This document shows positions 11,327 to 50,191 of a stretch of DNA of 64,000 nt, piece by piece. The position numbers and the translations under genes were made by a program. The stretch is from Clostridiales bacterium Firm_14 (GTDB lineage: Bacteria; Bacillota; Clostridia; Saccharofermentanales; Saccharofermentanaceae). The stretch covers positions 1-64,000 of the forward strand of contig LVAT01000013.1 in NCBI GenBank assembly GCA_001604135.1. Reading direction: 5' to 3'. Within the stretch, counting starts at the first letter, position 1, and every line of letters begins with the position of its first letter. The notes under the pieces were generated by a model. It was not told the origin of the DNA. It searched no databases and worked only from the letters and a program-made list of their open reading frames with translations.

Positions 11327-12391
11327 TCAGCCCATATTCAAGTGTACCAAGACCATGATAAGGACGTCTAATGCGGCGGCTGCGAAAAGGGCAACTATAC
11401 CGAGAATTATAAGCAGCTTGATATATGTAGGCACATCGCAGTAAGTTTTGCCGGTCTGTCCGTTGATGGCTACCGGATAAGTCTTTTTGCCCACCGTGAA
11501 TGAGGCAAGATACATGGGGGCCATAAGACATCTGAATCTGACGTTATAGTAGTTAGAGTAGATCTTTTCGACCAACAGCCTGTCGAAATAACGATGAATG
11601 TCTTTTTTCAATTTCTTGGCGATCAGCGTTTTCGAGCGATCCCAGCCTTCATCAAGTCCGATCGTATAACGTTCGGTCGGAATGCCGGCGAGGTATTCGG
11701 GTGAATAAGGGACGGCTTTCTTGTAGTCGTAATCAAGGACTTTAGCAATATACGGATGCTTGAGCCTGTTAGTTGCGAAGATCAGGATATCATCAAAGTT
11801 CTGATACCATTTACCGGTGACAGGCTTGCCACGGGAGTTTTCAATATGTTCTCCATAGTAAGTTGAAGCGGTGACAGCGTCAAAAGTCCAGAAAGGAAGA
11901 TAGATGCCGACAACTTTTTCGAGTTTGCAGTCAAATACTTTCTTGTTGACGAGTTTCTTTCTCTTCACGAAATTGAGAAACAGATCCTGAGTCTGTTCTT
12001 TGGTGATGGAGAAGGGGATGACGGCATTGGGAACCATGATCTGGTCTGTCTCAGCTGCAGGCGCAACGCTTGTTGAACCGCAGAAAGGGCACGCGCCCGT
12101 AACCTGTTCGGCGTCGTAAACCGACTGACCGCCGCAGTTAGCGCAGATGATCAGCTTCTTATATTTGCCCCAGTCGACACTTGCACGCTGTAAAGCCGTG
12201 TTGAAATCGAGCTCTGCGGCTACGGCACCTTCCTGAGGTGTCGGAAGCTGTGTTGATAAACCACAGAATGGACAAGTTATGGTTCCGGTGGCGGGATCGA
12301 AACTTATGCCGATGGAAGTACCGCATCCGGGACATTTAATATCCGTGCTTGTAACATTAATGCTGCTAATGACGCTTTTGTCTTCAGACAT
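11327..12391 (-). CDS. TFIIB-like double zinc-ribbon protein with C-terminal membrane anchor
   Basis: A 354-residue protein. Two consecutive four-cysteine ribbons lie in the first 110 residues: CPGCG with CPFCG, then CANCG with CPFCG. A mixed alpha/beta domain follows (residues 120-310, including YLPFWTFDAVTASTYYGEH), and the C-terminus is a single hydrophobic helix (IIRL-like ILGIVALFAAAALDVLIMVL). This resembles clostridial proteins often labelled TFIIB-type zinc ribbon proteins, of unknown role. Start supported by AAAGAGGATAG. With the phosphoesterase downstream it forms a two-gene minus-strand unit. Confidence 0.75.
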   Translation of the reverse strand: MSEDKSVISSINVTSTDIKCPGCGTSIGISFDPATGTITCPFCGLSTQLPTPQEGAVAAELDFNTALQRASVDWGKYKKLIICANCGGQSVYDAEQVTGACPFCGSTSVAPAAETDQIMVPNAVIPFSITKEQTQDLFLNFVKRKKLVNKKVFDCKLEKVVGIYLPFWTFDAVTASTYYGEHIENSRGKPVTGKWYQNFDDILIFATNRLKHPYIAKVLDYDYKKAVPYSPEYLAGIPTERYTIGLDEGWDRSKTLIAKKLKKDIHRYFDRLLVEKIYSNYYNVRFRCLMAPMYLASFTVGKKTYPVAINGQTGKTYCDVPTYIKLLIILGIVALFAAAALDVLIMVLVHLNMG

Positions 12392-12511
12392 TTCTCTATC
12401 CTCTTTCGCAAACTCAAAGATATTTTAACAAAATTGCATGCTTTATGACATATGAGTAAAAGTAATATGTATAATGATAATAGCATCTGAGCGAATAAGA
12501 GGACAGACAGA

Positions 12512-13633
12512 ATGGAACAGAACGAAAACAGATATCGAATTATTAATAATGCACCTGACAATCCGTATAATCAGTATTATCAGCAATACATTGTTGAACC
12601 CGGAGACGAGAAAAAAGAAATATCCAAGGGCAAACGTATAGCTTCGATGGTGCTTTGCGCAGTATCGAACATGGGTTTGCTTTCTTTTTGTGTGTACTGG
12701 GTTGTAGATTTTTATTTGATGGGCATATATGGAGGCGGTAATCAGACTGTCTCTAACAGTGTTGTATTCACATTATCGCTGTTTGCTTATTTTATGACCG
12801 TATTCCTTACTACGTCGGTCGTTGCTATAGTGATCAACCGCAAAAGCAGATGGGCTGTTATCAACTTTATACTTATAGGCGTCGTTTTTTCGACAGTGAT
12901 GCTCATAAGTTACATAGCGCCGTCAAATGTAGCACGCGCAGAGGATAAGCACAGTCCTATCACATCCAATTGGAAATTCTATTCACTGACATCAGGCGGT
13001 AAAACCTCTGAGGCTGAAGACTTCAGCGAGAAAGATATCCCGATGATCATCATCTACGCTGACAGTACGGATTCGCGCTACTATAAAGTCACTTACCGTC
13101 AGAACGGCAAGAATCACGATGCTGACATGATCGTCAGGTCAGCATATGACCGTACATATACGATCGATTATGTTGATTCTGAGCGTGATATGATCGCTAA
13201 GGTAGATGAAGATAAGCTTACACTTACGATCGACGGCGAAAAGGGCATCCGCATCGTTTTTGTGGCTACAGATGAAGAGACGCTTATCCCTGTAGACGAT
13301 GAAGAAGGTCCTGACTATATGAAGGTAAAGATGACCGGTAAAGGCACTGTCGATTTTACTAACGAGAGCGATGCTGAATACGGCTTCTCCTACTTCTATA
13401 AGCTTGAAGTCCTGAAGGATGGTAAGTGGTATTATGCTCGCTATGAAGATTACCTTGCCTGGAATGATAACGGCGGCATCTACCTGTTTCCCGGTGCGAC
13501 TATAACGCAGGAATACGATCTCTCATGCTATGGTAAGCTCAGCCCCGGCGAATACAGGCTTGCAGTTGGCGATGAAGATGCGTGCCTTTATGCATACTTT
13601 ACGGTAAATCCGGACGGCACATTTTCCTACTGA
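12512..13633 (+). CDS. Membrane protein with extracytoplasmic domain, unknown function
   Basis: A 373-residue protein that I do not recognise. After a polar, Tyr/Asn-rich cytoplasmic N-terminus (residues 1-45) there are three hydrophobic segments up to about residue 135. A beta-rich domain of about 230 residues follows, probably outside the membrane. It ends in YAYFTVNPDGTFSY, resembling the Ig-like or intracellular-protease-inhibitor style domains appended to Firmicute envelope sensors, but the match is weak. It is divergent from the double zinc-ribbon gene; a TATAAT at 12470 may serve its promoter. Confidence 0.7.
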   Translation: MEQNENRYRIINNAPDNPYNQYYQQYIVEPGDEKKEISKGKRIASMVLCAVSNMGLLSFCVYWVVDFYLMGIYGGGNQTVSNSVVFTLSLFAYFMTVFLTTSVVAIVINRKSRWAVINFILIGVVFSTVMLISYIAPSNVARAEDKHSPITSNWKFYSLTSGGKTSEAEDFSEKDIPMIIIYADSTDSRYYKVTYRQNGKNHDADMIVRSAYDRTYTIDYVDSERDMIAKVDEDKLTLTIDGEKGIRIVFVATDEETLIPVDDEEGPDYMKVKMTGKGTVDFTNESDAEYGFSYFYKLEVLKDGKWYYARYEDYLAWNDNGGIYLFPGATITQEYDLSCYGKLSPGEYRLAVGDEDACLYAYFTVNPDGTFSY

Positions 13634-16851: not shown

Positions 16852-16880
16852 TTGACGCAACTGGTTTATAAGTGTAAACT
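16852..16880 (+). promoter_or_regulatory. Promoter of the blaI-like operon
   Basis: TTGACG (16852-16857) and TAAACT (16875-16880) are spaced 17 bases. The spacer and the -10 box are inside the first operator, so a bound repressor would block polymerase directly. Confidence 0.65.
16863..16880 (+). promoter_or_regulatory. BlaI-type operator 1
   Basis: GGTTTATAAGTGTAAACT is an 18-base imperfect palindrome. Its core TATA-AG-TGTA differs from the BlaI/MecI box TACA-NN-TGTA at one position. It overlaps the -10 box. Confidence 0.6.
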
Positions 16881-16886
16881 GAACTT

Positions 16887-16904
16887 GGTTTATAAATGTA
16901 AACC
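16887..16904 (+). promoter_or_regulatory. BlaI-type operator 2
   Basis: GGTTTATAAATGTAAACC has perfect 6-base arms GGTTTA/TAAACC and core TATA-AA-TGTA. It lies 24 bases downstream of operator 1, centre to centre, around the transcription start. Tandem operators of this kind are typical for BlaI/MecI dimers. Confidence 0.6.
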
Positions 16905-16927: not shown

Positions 16928-17296
16928 ATGGAAGAATTGATCTTGTGTGATTCAGAAAAGCGTCTGATGGAGATTATCTGGGAGGAAGAACCGCTTGAGT
17001 CAGGTAAGCTGGTTAAACTTGCCAATGATAAGATCTATTGGAACAAATCCACCACATACACGATTCTTCGCAAGCTGATTGCCAAGGGCTTTGTCAAGAA
17101 CGAAGATACGATCGTAAGTGCTCTCATCCCGAAGGAAAAGGTGTTGATCTCTGAGAGCAATCATATCGTTGAAGACAGCTTTTCTGGCTCTCTTCCGAAA
17201 TTTGTTTCTGCTTTCTTTGGCAGCAAGAAGACACTTACGGATAAGGAAGCTGATGATTTGATCAGGATCATCAGGGAGAATATGGAAGGAGACTAA
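16928..17296 (+). CDS. BlaI/MecI/CopY family repressor
   Basis: A 122-residue winged-helix repressor close to the usual 120-126. The DNA-recognition region is YWNKSTTYTILRKLIAKGF (residues 37-55). The C-terminal dimerisation part holds DSFSGSLPKFVSAFF at residues 83-97, the segment in which BlaI and MecI are cut by activated BlaR1/MecR1; Ser84-Phe85 stands where Asn-Phe is cut in the staphylococcal proteins. The next gene encodes the matching protease. It should repress its own operon through the two operators upstream. A GCAGGG sequence serves as ribosome site. Confidence 0.88.
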   Translation: MEELILCDSEKRLMEIIWEEEPLESGKLVKLANDKIYWNKSTTYTILRKLIAKGFVKNEDTIVSALIPKEKVLISESNHIVEDSFSGSLPKFVSAFFGSKKTLTDKEADDLIRIIRENMEGD

Positions 17297-17298
17297 AG

Positions 17299-19050
17299 GT
17301 GGGTGCTTTATTCTTTAAAGTGCTTGAGATGTCTTTCATGGGAAGTGTGGTAATCCTTATTACTATACTTGCCAGATTCCTCCTGCGTAAAAGATCCAAG
17401 AATTTCATCATGATCTTATGGGTTGTAGTTGCCTTAAGACTGGTAGTGCCTTTCGGCATTGAATCTGCATTCAGCATCTTTAATTATCTTCCTGTTCCTG
17501 CACAGACCGTGCCTGTAGCTGAACAGGTTTCCGAAGCAGTATTACCTGACAATTATGTTGTTCCTGAAGCAACATTCAATGCTGCTGAGATCGTTGATAT
17601 GGAAACTAAAGGAGGAGAGATTTCTGTTGCTCCTTCAAATAATCATGCAGATGCAAGGTCATTACCGGATATCAAAACAATTATTGCTGTGATTTGGATT
17701 ATTGGAACTGCCGGAGTTATCTCTTACTGTTCCATCCGCTATATTGGTCTTAAGAGGAAACTTAAGACTGCAAAAAGAATAGATAAGAACATCTATGAAT
17801 CTGACAAGATCAAGTCGCCGTTCGTATTTGGTTTCTTTGTTCCGAAAATGTATTTACCTGACTCGCTCGACGAAGCTGAACGAGAATACGTTTTGATTCA
17901 TGAGAGAACACATATCAAGCATGGTGACTGGATCAAGAAATTCCTTGGCATAGCTGTTCTTTCCGTTCACTGGTTTAATCCGCTCGTATGGCTCGCTTTT
18001 GCTCTTTTCGAGCAGGATATTGAGATGAGCTGTGATGAGACGACGATTTCTACTCTTGATGCAGGCATGAGAAAAGCGTATGCGATCTCACTCGTATCTT
18101 ATGCAAAGATCAGCAGCAATAAGAACTATCTGGTAACCCCGTTGGGATTCAGTAAGAATGCTTTCGGTAAAGCGGAGGTTACAAACAGAGTTATGAATAT
18201 AGTTAATTTCAGAAAGGGTACCAAAGTAACAACTGTTGCCATTACGGCTGCTATTCTGGTTCTTGCTGCAGTATGCGGTTTTGATTCCAGACCTACAGAA
18301 AATACACAGGATTCATCTGAGACAACCGGAGAATCAGTTTTCGAATTACCGGTCGATAATCCAATTGCCAAAAATGTGATCAACAATGAGCACAAGTTTG
18401 AAAACGGTGTCTGCAAAGACTGCGGAATGCTTTGGTCTGAGTATTATTTTGAATGCCTCCAAAAGCTCGATAAGTATCATGAAGAGGGCGGATGGTATTC
18501 CGTATACGGCGCAGAATCTGCCGCCAGGATAGACGAGAGCGATTATGTTCAATTCATAGCAACGGAAAAGAACGCAGCTACGATCTACTATCAGCATCTT
18601 GATGACAACTTTAATAAGGAATCCTGCACTGTTTCCATCCAGGATAGCGGAGATGGAAAGTCAATTGCATTTATTGAATTTGATCTGTCACAGGGACAGG
18701 TTAGTATCGGAGAAGGCGTATTTGCTTATAAGTATCAGTATTCTCTCATTATTAATGTCGATCCTGGCGATTACGATAAGGTCTTTAAGTCGAAAGAATC
18801 ATTTGCCGAGTACTGCAAACCTTATCTGTTCGTATTAGGTGAAGACAATGTAGGTACGGATGTCTGGTCTACCATGAGTGACGCTGAGATCAAGCAGATG
18901 TTCGATGACGCTGATGGAAGCAGATACTTTAGCAAAGATGAACTGATTGACTTGTTCTGGAATGATTATGCAAGGATGTTTGCAAGTATCGATTATGGTT
19001 TGACGCAGATGAACACATCTCTGGCTGAAACAGGAATCAACTGGAAATAA
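17299..19050 (+). CDS. BlaR1/MecR1-like M56 membrane protease with novel C-terminal domain
   Basis: A 583-residue sensor-protease. Residues 1-330 form the M56 module: membrane helices near 2-28, 35-56, 124-150 and 210-235, the zinc site HERTH at 201-205, the downstream EMSCDE acidic ligand, and a last helix near 310-330. In BlaR1 a penicillin-binding domain follows. Here there is instead a Thr/Ser-rich linker and an unrecognised domain at residues 365-583, opening with HKFENGVCKDCGMLWSEYY; no SxxK/KTG penicillin motifs are visible in it. The same domain ends the next gene product and the lipoprotein at 48.8 kb. GTG start at 17299 sits 2 bases after the repressor stop, with GGAAGGAG upstream. 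Confidence 0.85.
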   Translation: MGALFFKVLEMSFMGSVVILITILARFLLRKRSKNFIMILWVVVALRLVVPFGIESAFSIFNYLPVPAQTVPVAEQVSEAVLPDNYVVPEATFNAAEIVDMETKGGEISVAPSNNHADARSLPDIKTIIAVIWIIGTAGVISYCSIRYIGLKRKLKTAKRIDKNIYESDKIKSPFVFGFFVPKMYLPDSLDEAEREYVLIHERTHIKHGDWIKKFLGIAVLSVHWFNPLVWLAFALFEQDIEMSCDETTISTLDAGMRKAYAISLVSYAKISSNKNYLVTPLGFSKNAFGKAEVTNRVMNIVNFRKGTKVTTVAITAAILVLAAVCGFDSRPTENTQDSSETTGESVFELPVDNPIAKNVINNEHKFENGVCKDCGMLWSEYYFECLQKLDKYHEEGGWYSVYGAESAARIDESDYVQFIATEKNAATIYYQHLDDNFNKESCTVSIQDSGDGKSIAFIEFDLSQGQVSIGEGVFAYKYQYSLIINVDPGDYDKVFKSKESFAEYCKPYLFVLGEDNVGTDVWSTMSDAEIKQMFDDADGSRYFSKDELIDLFWNDYARMFASIDYGLTQMNTSLAETGINWK

Positions 19051-19087: not shown

Positions 19088-20449
19088 ATGAAAAAAGTTA
19101 TTGCGCTGCTCTTATGCGGAGCTATGATGTCGTCTTATGTTCTTTGCGGCTGTTCCAGCTTGATAAAGAAAACAGAAGATAACGATGAAGGAGAAACTCA
19201 GACAGAAGAGACTGAGGCTTCTTCCGGGACAGAAGCTGATGAGACAGATCCAGGTCCGACCAAGCTTCAGCAGGTAATTGATCTCTATAATACAAAGCAG
19301 CCTGAAGGAAAATGGGGTGTCCCTGTTTTTGCTGACGGAATAAGAGGCAACGGCAGCTATTCTGTTCACGAAAACAGCGTCTATTTCTACTATAGTAATT
19401 TAGACAGATCTACTCTTCAGTTCAACGTAGATACCAATACGATGGAGGTCAGATTCACTTTCGATCTGCAATTCGATGACAACACCCGTTATTACGGAAC
19501 AAATCACGATTACATTGGCGTTGATCAGTTCGAATCGTTTATCGGCGATATCCTGGAAAAGAATTCTTCAACGGTTGAGATATACGACGAGGCTGCTTGG
19601 GCTGTCAATGAGGACAAAATCAAGTCTGATCTGCCTGTCTATTATTCCAGATTGATCACTTTGGCTAGCAAGGCTTTTCCTGAACTCGGATTTGGAATTG
19701 AGGACCTTGGTCTGGATTTCGGTAACAAATATAGAAATGTTGATCCTACACAGTCTACCAGCACCGAACTTACGATCAAGAATGATCATAAGTTCGAGAA
19801 AGGTGTCTGCAAAGAGTGCGGAATGCTCTGGTCTGAATACTATTACGAAACGCTTGAGAAGTTGGATAAAGATACCGCAAAAGGAGAGTGGCATTCAGTT
19901 TATGGACAGGCTTCAGCTACAATGTTTTCTCCTAGCGATTATGTCCAATATTCTGCTTACAATAAGAATTGGGCTGAGCTCTATTATCAGTATCTTGAAG
20001 ATACGTTTGAAGAAAGTTGCTACATTGTTGTTCTTAACTCGAACGGCACCCCGTTCATTGATATTTTATTCTGTTATGAAATGGGAACTTTTCCTCTCGG
20101 AGAAGGAGTGTTTGAAACCAGGTTTAAGTATATTCTTGAGTTCACTGCTGCACCTGGTGAATATGATAAGGTCTTTGAATCGAAGGAGTCTTTTGCCAAA
20201 TATTGTAAACTGCAGTTGAGATATACCACTGATGATGAAAAGAAATCGGATTTGTATGCTGATAAGAGTGAAGAAGAGATCAAAGAGATGATGGCTAATG
20301 CTAAGGAGAAAGACTGCACCTATTATACCAAAGAGGAGATAATCGACAGATTCTGGGAAGATTACCAGAGGATCCTCGCCAGCATGGATTCCGGTATGGT
20401 CTGGATGGACACATCCCTGAACGATATTGGAGTTAATTGGAAGAAATAA
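19088..20449 (+). CDS. Two-domain lipoprotein sharing the sensor domain of the BlaR1-like protein
   Basis: A 453-residue predicted lipoprotein. The signal peptide ends in VLCGC, with the lipidated Cys at residue 22, followed by an acidic Glu/Thr/Asp-rich linker to about residue 57. Domain 1 (about 58-225) includes FADGIRGNG and ends with FPELGFGIEDLGLDFG. Domain 2 (234-453) begins HKFEKGVCKECGMLWSEYYYE and ends MDTSLNDIGVNWKK; it aligns over its whole length with the C-terminus of the BlaR1-like protein upstream. The gap of 37 bases has no terminator, so the three genes form one operon. It could be a decoy, co-receptor or effector on the outer face of the membrane. No known function. Confidence 0.8.
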   Translation: MKKVIALLLCGAMMSSYVLCGCSSLIKKTEDNDEGETQTEETEASSGTEADETDPGPTKLQQVIDLYNTKQPEGKWGVPVFADGIRGNGSYSVHENSVYFYYSNLDRSTLQFNVDTNTMEVRFTFDLQFDDNTRYYGTNHDYIGVDQFESFIGDILEKNSSTVEIYDEAAWAVNEDKIKSDLPVYYSRLITLASKAFPELGFGIEDLGLDFGNKYRNVDPTQSTSTELTIKNDHKFEKGVCKECGMLWSEYYYETLEKLDKDTAKGEWHSVYGQASATMFSPSDYVQYSAYNKNWAELYYQYLEDTFEESCYIVVLNSNGTPFIDILFCYEMGTFPLGEGVFETRFKYILEFTAAPGEYDKVFESKESFAKYCKLQLRYTTDDEKKSDLYADKSEEEIKEMMANAKEKDCTYYTKEEIIDRFWEDYQRILASMDSGMVWMDTSLNDIGVNWKK

Positions 20450-48454: not shown

Positions 48455-48552
48455 TATCTCTTTGTCCTGATGTTGTTATCTCAAAAGACAAAGCAATGGA
48501 GTGCATCAGGGAATTTCTGGAAACCGGAAAGCAGCCTGAATGCATTAAGTGG

Positions 48553-48574
48553 CAGGCGCTTTAAGCCTGTTTTT
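48553..48574 (+). terminator. Terminator downstream of recN
   Basis: Arms CAGGC and GCCTG with a 7-base loop, followed by five Ts. Confidence 0.6.
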
Positions 48575-48617
48575 GGATAGTTTCCATTAAAAGATTTCCG
48601 CTGACTGATTAAATATG

Positions 48618-48649
48618 TATATGTTAGATATATTGCATATATGTCAGAT
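48618..48649 (+). repeat. Pair of 12-base direct repeats upstream of a promoter
   Basis: TATATGTTAGAT (48618-48629) and TATATGTCAGAT (48638-48649) match at 11 of 12 bases with a 20-base period, about two helical turns. They end 17 bases before the candidate -35 box, a usual place for tandem activator sites. Confidence 0.5.
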
Positions 48650-48666
48650 TTATGCGTAAAATTATC

Positions 48667-48695
48667 TTGATATCTTTTATTCTCTACAAGATATT
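48667..48695 (+). promoter_or_regulatory. Candidate promoter of the lipoprotein gene
   Basis: TTGATA and GATATT are spaced 17 bases apart. The -10 box is poor, which fits a promoter that needs an activator. Confidence 0.4.
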
Positions 48696-48769
48696 TGACT
48701 GAATGGAAAAAGGGGGTCAGTCTTGCAGGGAAAGAGGATATCTAATCTATATTGGAAAGGGATCAGAAA

Positions 48770-50122
48770 ATGAAAAGAATGAAGAAAGCGGTTGCTCTTG
48801 TGTTGAGCGGGGTCATGCTGACATCGCTTGTCCTTTGCGCATGCCAAAAGGCAGATGAAAGCGAAGGAATTGAAACGGGAAATGGTTCAGATTCGGAATC
48901 TGTTACTGAAGAGTTATGGACACCGCCCACAAAACTAAATGAAGACAATATCAAAAAGGCACAGGAGTATTGCTCAACTGTTGATCCGGAAGGACATGAA
49001 GGAATTGTCGTCTATCTCGACGGCATCAGAGGCGAAAGTTCAACTATAGTAGATGATAGTCTCATCTATTTTGATTATTCATCTAATGATGGTGATACAT
49101 TTGGCATTAATGTAATGAGAGATACCGGCGAAGTACATCTTTCTATTTATACGATGTATGGTGATACTGGTTATGCTGCAAATCTGGAATTTTCTCTTGG
49201 AGAATTTGAAAAGACTTTTGATAAGATTTGCGAAGATCCCGAGTCTGTAGAGCCATATAATTATGATGCTCTTGATTCACATAAAGAAGATATCAAGAAG
49301 GACTTTGCGATCATCTTTGCCAGAATGGCTGCATTTTCAGATGTTGCTTTTCCTGAGCTGGGAATCGGCTTAAAGGATCTCGGCGTGGATATGGGTGATA
49401 AGTACAGGAATATCGATCCCAAGCAGTTAACCAGCAAAGAAGTCGAAGTAACTAATGAGCATAAGTTCGAAAACGGTTTCTGTACTGACTGCGGTATGGC
49501 TTGGACAGAATATTATTATGATGTTGTCGGAAAGTTCATGAAAACTGATTTGGGTAATGGTCAGCATTCTACATCAGGCCAGGGATCTTCTGCAATGTTG
49601 TCTATATCTGATCAGGTACAGTATTCTGCAGATAATGGCAGCCGCGCAAGCATGTATTTTCGCCATATGGATATTGATAACGACCTCCACATTACAACGA
49701 GTGATATGTGTCATGTTATAGCATCCACACGCAAAGATAGTGTTAGTATTGCCGTCCAGTATTATTATGAACTCGAGAAGCGTACTACGGATGGCAAAAC
49801 TTATAGTTACTTTCTGGGCTTTGGCGCTAAACCGGGTGAATTAGATAAGGTTTTTGAATCGAAAGAGGCATTTAAGGATTGCGTTGATATTAATATGTCT
49901 ATTACTACCAGAGAACACGACAACGATATTGACGATGCATGGGGAACAATGAAGGAAGAGGACATCCGCGCTATGATGGAAGCAGACGGCTTCGCGTATT
50001 TGTCGAAGGATGATATCATCGACAGATTCTGGGATATGCGTTCTACCTTCTTTACAAGTCTCGACAACGGTATGGTCTGGATGAAGACATCCCTTAAGGA
50101 TTTCGGATTCAACTGGAAGTAA
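48770..50122 (+). CDS. Paralogous two-domain lipoprotein with the BlaR1-linked domain
   Basis: A 450-residue predicted lipoprotein and full-length relative of the one encoded at 19.1 kb. Signal peptide ends LVLCAC, with the lipid Cys near residue 24, then a Glu/Ser/Asp-rich linker. Domain 1 shares DGIRG and FPELGIGLKDLGVDMG with its paralogue; domain 2 (231-450) opens HKFENGFCTDCGMAWTEYYYD and ends MKTSLKDFGFNWK. No repressor or protease gene lies beside it. Start at ATG 48770 because GGAAAGGG is upstream; a longer frame from a TTG at 48752 would include the ribosome site. Function unknown. Confidence 0.78.
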   Translation: MKRMKKAVALVLSGVMLTSLVLCACQKADESEGIETGNGSDSESVTEELWTPPTKLNEDNIKKAQEYCSTVDPEGHEGIVVYLDGIRGESSTIVDDSLIYFDYSSNDGDTFGINVMRDTGEVHLSIYTMYGDTGYAANLEFSLGEFEKTFDKICEDPESVEPYNYDALDSHKEDIKKDFAIIFARMAAFSDVAFPELGIGLKDLGVDMGDKYRNIDPKQLTSKEVEVTNEHKFENGFCTDCGMAWTEYYYDVVGKFMKTDLGNGQHSTSGQGSSAMLSISDQVQYSADNGSRASMYFRHMDIDNDLHITTSDMCHVIASTRKDSVSIAVQYYYELEKRTTDGKTYSYFLGFGAKPGELDKVFESKEAFKDCVDINMSITTREHDNDIDDAWGTMKEEDIRAMMEADGFAYLSKDDIIDRFWDMRSTFFTSLDNGMVWMKTSLKDFGFNWK

Positions 50123-50157: not shown

Positions 50158-50191
50158 AATCCCCCTCAAAAGATTGGTTTTGAGGGGGATT
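50158..50191 (+). terminator. Strong hairpin after the lipoprotein gene
   Basis: Perfect 14-base arms AATCCCCCTCAAAA and TTTTGAGGGGGATT enclose GATTGG. There is no T-run after it, so it may block RNA decay or act together with the AT-rich sequence that follows. Confidence 0.6.

Follow-up and report, generated by a model that had tools for sequence, protein, structure and literature searches.

The gene at 48770-50122 of the window (the whole stretch of DNA that was analysed, 64,000 nucleotides from Clostridiales bacterium Firm_14) encodes, as judged from comparison with its relatives, a surface lipoprotein that is real, old and under separate regulation, and whose outer domain is also that of a BlaR1-like receptor. 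The gene appears to be a long-established, recN-linked member of a surface lipoprotein family built from what would be two copies of one domain and, because it is without the DNA control site of the receptor operon, we regard this orphan as a separately controlled sister of the operon lipoprotein rather than as a hidden target. BlaR1-type receptors are best known for the sensing of antibiotics; the BlaR1-like frame found here bears other antennae, one of which is also worn by surface lipoproteins with readable genes, and this common antenna offers a way to find out what BlaR1-like receptors other than penicillin sensors respond to. The case also corrects a tempting inference, since a paralogue located elsewhere in a genome need not share the same repressor. 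The features involved are collected in Table 1.

Table 1. Features of the orphan lipoprotein locus and of the receptor operon in the window.
Feature	Position	Strand	Remarks
Paired operator	16864..16903	.	Two GTTTA-N6-TAAAC dyads 24 bp apart, before blaI
BlaI-like repressor	16928..17296	+	Pfam Penicillinase_R 1.9e-18
BlaR1-like M56 receptor, domain 2 as C-terminal outer domain	17299..19050	+	Pfam M56 1e-48; HERTH
Receptor-linked two-domain lipoprotein, paralogue of the orphan	19088..20449	+	
Upstream region of the orphan	48455..48769	+	315 bp; best GTTTA-N6-TAAAC match with 3 mismatches (chance level)
Orphan two-domain lipoprotein	48770..50122	+	450 aa; lipobox-like LCAC
Domain 1 of the orphan	48923..49447	+	About residues 52-226; helix, strands, helices
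Domain 2 of the orphan	49448..50119	+	Residues 227-450; HKFENGxCxxCG knuckle, terminal NWK; common to the M56 receptor
Hairpin behind the orphan	50158..50191	.	14-bp stem; -23.1 kcal/mol for the stretch, z -5.3

For the orphan gene, the ATG at 48770 was preferred as the start over a TTG at 48752, further upstream in the list of open reading frames; the protein start MKRMxK is identical in its two nearest relatives. A signal peptide with a lipobox was recognised, using a loose pattern and no trained predictor, and the same kind of pattern detected a lipobox-like motif in 42 of the 42 two-domain proteins scanned. BLASTP aligned the orphan nearly end to end with the operon lipoprotein (173 of 471 columns identical, 37%; 276 bits; E 5e-93), and its match to the M56 receptor was confined to domain 2 (86/230 identical, 37%; E 6e-41), within which the operon lipoprotein and the receptor are 47% identical. 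The initial annotation had proposed that the orphan shares both domains with the lipoprotein at 19.1 kb, domain 1 being found only in the two lipoproteins and domain 2 in all three proteins. Within the genome of the window this description was borne out: the DGIRG, AFPELG..DLG, HKFE.G.C..C and terminal NWK motifs are all present in the orphan, the whole-length alignment excludes a similarity restricted to HKFxxGxCxxCG, and the proposed receptor-linked family with an orphan member is seen in the two domains common to the lipoproteins, one of them also in the receptor. No curated family for the orphan was found in Pfam, NCBIfam or PADLOC, and comparison of 18 rows of the family alignment with Pfam returned two families only, with one member each (E 0.0075 and 0.0098).

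The orphan lies directly downstream of recN (RecN TIGR00634, E 3e-145), itself preceded by dxs and by nadK-like and argR-like genes (both below the NCBIfam cut-offs), and is followed by GDSL-lipase-like, DUF4358 and MBOAT genes. In agreement with the absence of a repressor or protease noted in the initial annotation, no BlaI or M56 gene was found beside it, and its upstream region is indeed its own. The orphan protein is 88% identical to its relative in genome G016 and 85% to that in G067 (dN/dS 0.20), and 62.5% identical to one of the G071 copies (dN/dS 0.21), ratios to these three relatives that indicate purifying selection. Its upstream region contains a 16-nt direct repeat 20 bp apart (TATATGTTAGATATAT at 48618-48633 and TATATGTCAGATTTAT at 48638-48653), kept in G016 and G067 and absent from G071, which is a possible candidate site for some other regulator. 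The hairpin behind the gene may mark the end of its transcription; this role is unsure because the T-rich tail sits on the minus-strand side.

The linked operon resembles the BlaI-BlaR1 and MecI-MecR1 systems in several respects: the gene of a BlaI-type repressor adjoins that of an M56 receptor with an HExxH zinc motif (HERTH) and an outer C-terminal domain, operator-like dyads (GTTTATAAGTGTAAAC at 16864 and GTTTATAAATGTAAAC at 16888) precede the repressor gene, and the sensor domain is homologous to a linked product. The NCBIfam models for BlaR1, MecR1 and BlaI match this operon below their cut-offs. Unlike in those systems, no penicillin-binding sensor domain was found on the receptor, for which Pfam up to E 1 gives M56 and a weak M48 match only; its unnamed outer domain is common to lipoproteins, and the orphan stands outside the operon and has no recognisable copy of its operator. 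A further likeness is offered by the BlaI repressors of C. thermocellum. The part of PMC8457756 consulted describes paired dyads for each proposed target of BlaI_0696, an autoregulated operon with BlaR1-like genes and, as a target proposed from in vitro binding, a separate hypothetical gene; the dyad differs, being an inverted GTCTAT five nucleotides apart, and the section covered does not report the sharing of a domain between sensor and lipoprotein. Word searches of the open-licence PMC literature found no description of the present sensor or lipoprotein family.

The last membrane helix ends in AAAC in five of the six receptors with domain 2 (L070, L072, L075, L080 and L084) and in AAVC in the receptor of the window (helix at 18223-18276, approximate); with this lipobox-like end, the sensor part of the receptor might be released or lipidated. 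The genome of the window encodes seven BlaI-family repressors (on contigs C9, C13, C14, C15, C20, which has two, and C45), each with an M56 coding sequence nearby. The M56-holding open frames range from 306 to 1099 residues, and because their lengths vary so much, other outer domains probably exist in this genome.

A search of the genome of the window for the paired operator, allowing up to three mismatches, returned the place before blaI and no other (control, 0). Allowing up to one mismatch in 85 genomes of the genus, 36 places in 27 genomes were obtained (control, 0 in each), a specificity that makes the regulon predictable across species. A BlaI-M56 operon follows at 25 of these places, and 19 of the 25 receptors are without domain 2. 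Pfam, run on all 19, placed an NlpC/P60 outer domain in 11 (nine above the cut-off and two below it with E <0.001; L116:4087-5652 and ten similar receptors); the outer domain of the other eight is unassigned, with a weak DUF6591 match in two. All eight readable NlpC/P60 sequences (four of the 12 looked at could not be judged) have a non-cysteine at what we take to be the usual place of the catalytic cysteine, and this replacement suggests that the NlpC/P60 antenna binds rather than cuts. In G070 (L135) a cysteine is found one residue further on, and its domain may still be active. On these comparisons, the M56 receptor frame appears to carry interchangeable outer domains, be it domain 2, NlpC/P60 or an unassigned one. 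A broader reading, which we advance tentatively, is that of one BlaI/M56/paired-operator frame with exchangeable antennae, each a copied or degenerate surface-protein domain, where the two-domain lipoproteins would be the ligand-binding source of one antenna and the recN-linked orphan its constitutive older partner.

For the orphan itself, the explanation that we prefer, and to which we give about an even chance, is that it is expressed separately and binds, at the cell surface, the class of ligand that the receptor senses. Ligand binding is proposed because the domain serves as a receptor antenna, and by analogy: the BlaR1 sensor of S. aureus is related to class D beta-lactamases, according to the part of PMC9834060 consulted. 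The lipoprotein domain would bind a ligand at the cell surface, and the BlaR1-like M56 receptor would similarly have taken it over as its antenna. When the ligand appears, the receptor would free the promoter from BlaI and the lipoprotein of its own operon would be switched on; in sister species, the receptor would also switch on a domain-2-only lipoprotein and a transglutaminase-domain protein. The orphan would add binding or protective activity of the same kind under its own control and, to judge from the missing operator, probably at a basal level. An alternative is that the receptor senses the lipoproteins themselves through a putative pairing of domain 2 with domain 2, their amount or maturation being the signal and the orphan an input of the circuit. 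The presence of the same domain in receptor and lipoproteins would fit this, as would the occurrence of a recN-linked copy in all six genomes with a receptor of this type, and the AAAC helix end, which is a little like the lipoboxes of domain-2-only lipoproteins, hints that a free sensor could arise. The outer domains other than domain 2 on most receptors behind the same operator speak against it, and overall we consider sensing of the lipoproteins rather unlikely.

The binder explanation concerns a protein made of two modelled domains. AlphaFold2, run with an 18-row alignment, gave a mean pLDDT of 86.5 and a pTM of 0.80 for the whole orphan, with low confidence for residues 1-52, and 93.3 and 0.89, respectively, for domain 2 modelled alone. 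Both domains are modelled with a similar order of elements (helix, several strands, short helices and a long helix with a DLG/DFG-like end), domain 2 having one additional strand. Global hhalign comparison of the two domains was weak (probability 0.5%); the local score was 26.3 over 29 columns, whereas 59 column shuffles and one reversal reached 23.1 at most. This suggestive local score and the similar order of elements in the model make it probable that the two lipoprotein domains are copies of one fold that arose by internal duplication. Neither the whole protein nor domain 2 gave a Foldseek hit with an E value as good as 0.001, and the best scores of the VIA structure search, Z 7.1 (TamA) and 7.5 (BamA barrel), were within the stated background, with polo-box (domain 1), capping protein, p32 and TipC2 below those rows. 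Among PDB chains searched by sequence, the best E values were 0.035 and 0.059. Neither these nor the profile searches revealed a ligand, an enzyme motif or a clear structural relative of the two domains, which counts against the binder explanation.

TipC is the immunity protein of the LXG toxin TelC. Its possibly similar sheet-and-helix outline raises the alternative that the lipoproteins are immunity-like proteins against surface-acting toxins, as TipC of Streptococcus intermedius. TipC2 (6dhx) aligns over all of domain 2, with Z 6.2 (148 residues, rmsd 5.1) and 6.1 (149 residues, rmsd 5.0), and the tandem arrays and strong divergence of the family would fit such a role. However, these Z values are at the stated background, five and 14 other rows rank higher in the two lists, and no toxin gene was noticed in the neighbourhoods, which were inspected by reading and not by profile. 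We consider this role improbable.

The CxxC knuckle of domain 2 is common but dispensable across the sequences compared. C238 is a cysteine in 43 of 50 rows (missing in seven) and C241 in 42 of 51 (missing in nine), and tryptophan 245 is kept in 51 of 51. Since the pair is missing in some members, there is no fixed metal site common to the family, another point against the binder explanation. Seven copies have lost both cysteines together and kept the following tryptophan (L071:9878-11236, two in L053, two in L056, L060 and L062).

Regarding control of the orphan, the initial annotation had raised the possibility of regulation in trans by the BlaI-like repressor. In sister species such control is likely, to judge from the operator pairs found away from the BlaI-M56 operons. 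The paired operator precedes a domain-2-only lipoprotein at four places (G071, G073, G079 and a contig-end piece in G017; L073:6990-7029, L081:7489-7528, L085:1141-1180 and L121:451-490, all away from the BlaI operon) and a protein of 611-612 aa (638 in one longer frame) at five (G016, G017, G067, G071 and G073). In the latter protein, Pfam detected a transglutaminase core above the cut-off and leucine-rich repeats below it, as determined in the G016 copy (L120) only. The transglutaminase-domain proteins, which have a signal peptide, are found at L120:2086-3921, L122:2573-4408, L133:4107-5945, L136:4062-5978 and L137:443-2281. The two remaining places, each with one mismatch, precede a lipoprotein-like NlpC/P60 piece in G014 (L119), free of an M56 part and looking like a receptor that has lost it, and a zinc-ribbon protein in G025, perhaps by chance. 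In the genome of the window, a search for the transglutaminase-domain target yielded partial weak matches, of which the best had E 5.6e-14 over 80 residues, and the paired operator was not found a second time. A single GTTTA-N6-TAAAC dyad was observed near the G073 BlaI operon (L080:12660-12675), 37 bp before a lipoprotein-like gene (11853-12623, minus strand) that is a possible further BlaI target.

None of the 36 places precedes a recN-linked lipoprotein, so that the proposal of trans control is not supported for the orphan. No dyad of the cognate operator with up to two mismatches was found within 500 bp of it, and its best single dyad was equalled in 177 of 200 block shuffles. When 13 recN-linked copies were scanned over 500 bp of upstream sequence, their best single dyads had two to four mismatches and never fewer than two, and the two copies with a two-mismatch dyad have it more than 470 bp away, inside the preceding gene. 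The genome has six further BlaI-family repressors, of which four (C9, C14, C15 and C45) were considered as possible controllers: their operator-like patterns, defined by eye, gave no good match upstream of the orphan, a weak test given how short they are. In spite of the likely trans targets in sister species, it is therefore very improbable that this BlaI regulon extends in trans to the orphan.

A domain-2 profile search of the genome of the window (3.12 Mb in 45 contigs, 99.25% complete) found three places, a fourth match on C10 being at chance level (E 0.21, one internal stop). A two-row lipoprotein profile matched 79 of 115 genomes of the family, mostly with weak matches that lie largely at positions 1 to 60-80 (signal peptide); 29 genomes had a place at E <1e-12, and such places were taken further except for the small pieces G096:C86 and G073:C39. 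With an 18-row domain-2 profile and a threshold of E 1e-6, 30 of 188 genomes of the order gave a match; all of them belong to the family of the window, in two of 30 genera. The 41 fetched loci and the window contain 41 proteins with both domains, six receptor fusions (in G000, G017, G067, G071, G073 and G079) and several domain-2-only proteins or pieces. In all six fusions BlaI is followed by the receptor and then by a two-domain lipoprotein (truncated in G017, where the contig ends), and in G073 and G079 one more small gene intervenes.

As judged by sequence, an orphan-type lipoprotein lies behind recN in nine genomes (that of the window, G016, G067, G071, G008, G051, G073, G079 and G017). 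G071 has three copies in tandem there, and G073 and G079 have two each, the second of G079 being truncated; a small gene separates recN from the first copy in G071 and G073. The trees left out five rows whose domain-2 match was short, as well as proteins lacking this domain, including the domain-1 pieces L077 and L083:3197. The 39-row tree grouped the orphan with G016, G067, two G071 copies, one G073 copy, G008, G100 and G096 as a clade of nine rows (100/99); in the sequence read, the G100 and G096 members do not lie behind recN. This clade excludes the operon lipoprotein of the window, which groups with those of G071 and G067 (96/93); three further operon lipoproteins, a second one from G067 and one each from G073 and G079, make up a separate clade (100/100), and other recN-linked copies (G051, G017, G073 and G079) form another (100/100). 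No receptor fusion was found in the clade genomes G008 (100% completeness), G016, G096 and G100 (80-89%). The tree and the recN synteny therefore indicate that both loci predate these species, and the expansion within the genome suggested in the initial annotation, if taken as recent, is not supported: although one contig carries both loci at a distance of 28 kb, they are likewise separated by 32 kb in G067 and the paralogues are only 37% identical vs 85-88% for the same-locus orthologues, leaving next to no credence for the orphan as a recent duplicate of the operon lipoprotein.

These phylogenies also indicate that species differ in which tandem copies they have retained behind recN. The resolution of the domain-2 tree is poor (19 of its 48 inner branches are open, and the placement of two long rows at the root was not used). 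In this tree the receptor of the window groups with domain-2-only lipoproteins (96/95), and the five receptors of the other genomes stand apart from it (100/100), a pattern that hints at several fusion events or at exchange among copies. With the receptors split in this way and the operon lipoproteins in two clades, the history would not have been one clean fusion, a further point against the binder explanation. Those relatives that have names are metagenome-assembled genomes, among them Saccharofermentans sp. Tb.RUG.504 (RUG presumably standing for rumen genomes) and others labelled goat omasum or reindeer, so the host seems to be a gut-type bacterium with its nearest named relatives in the rumen.
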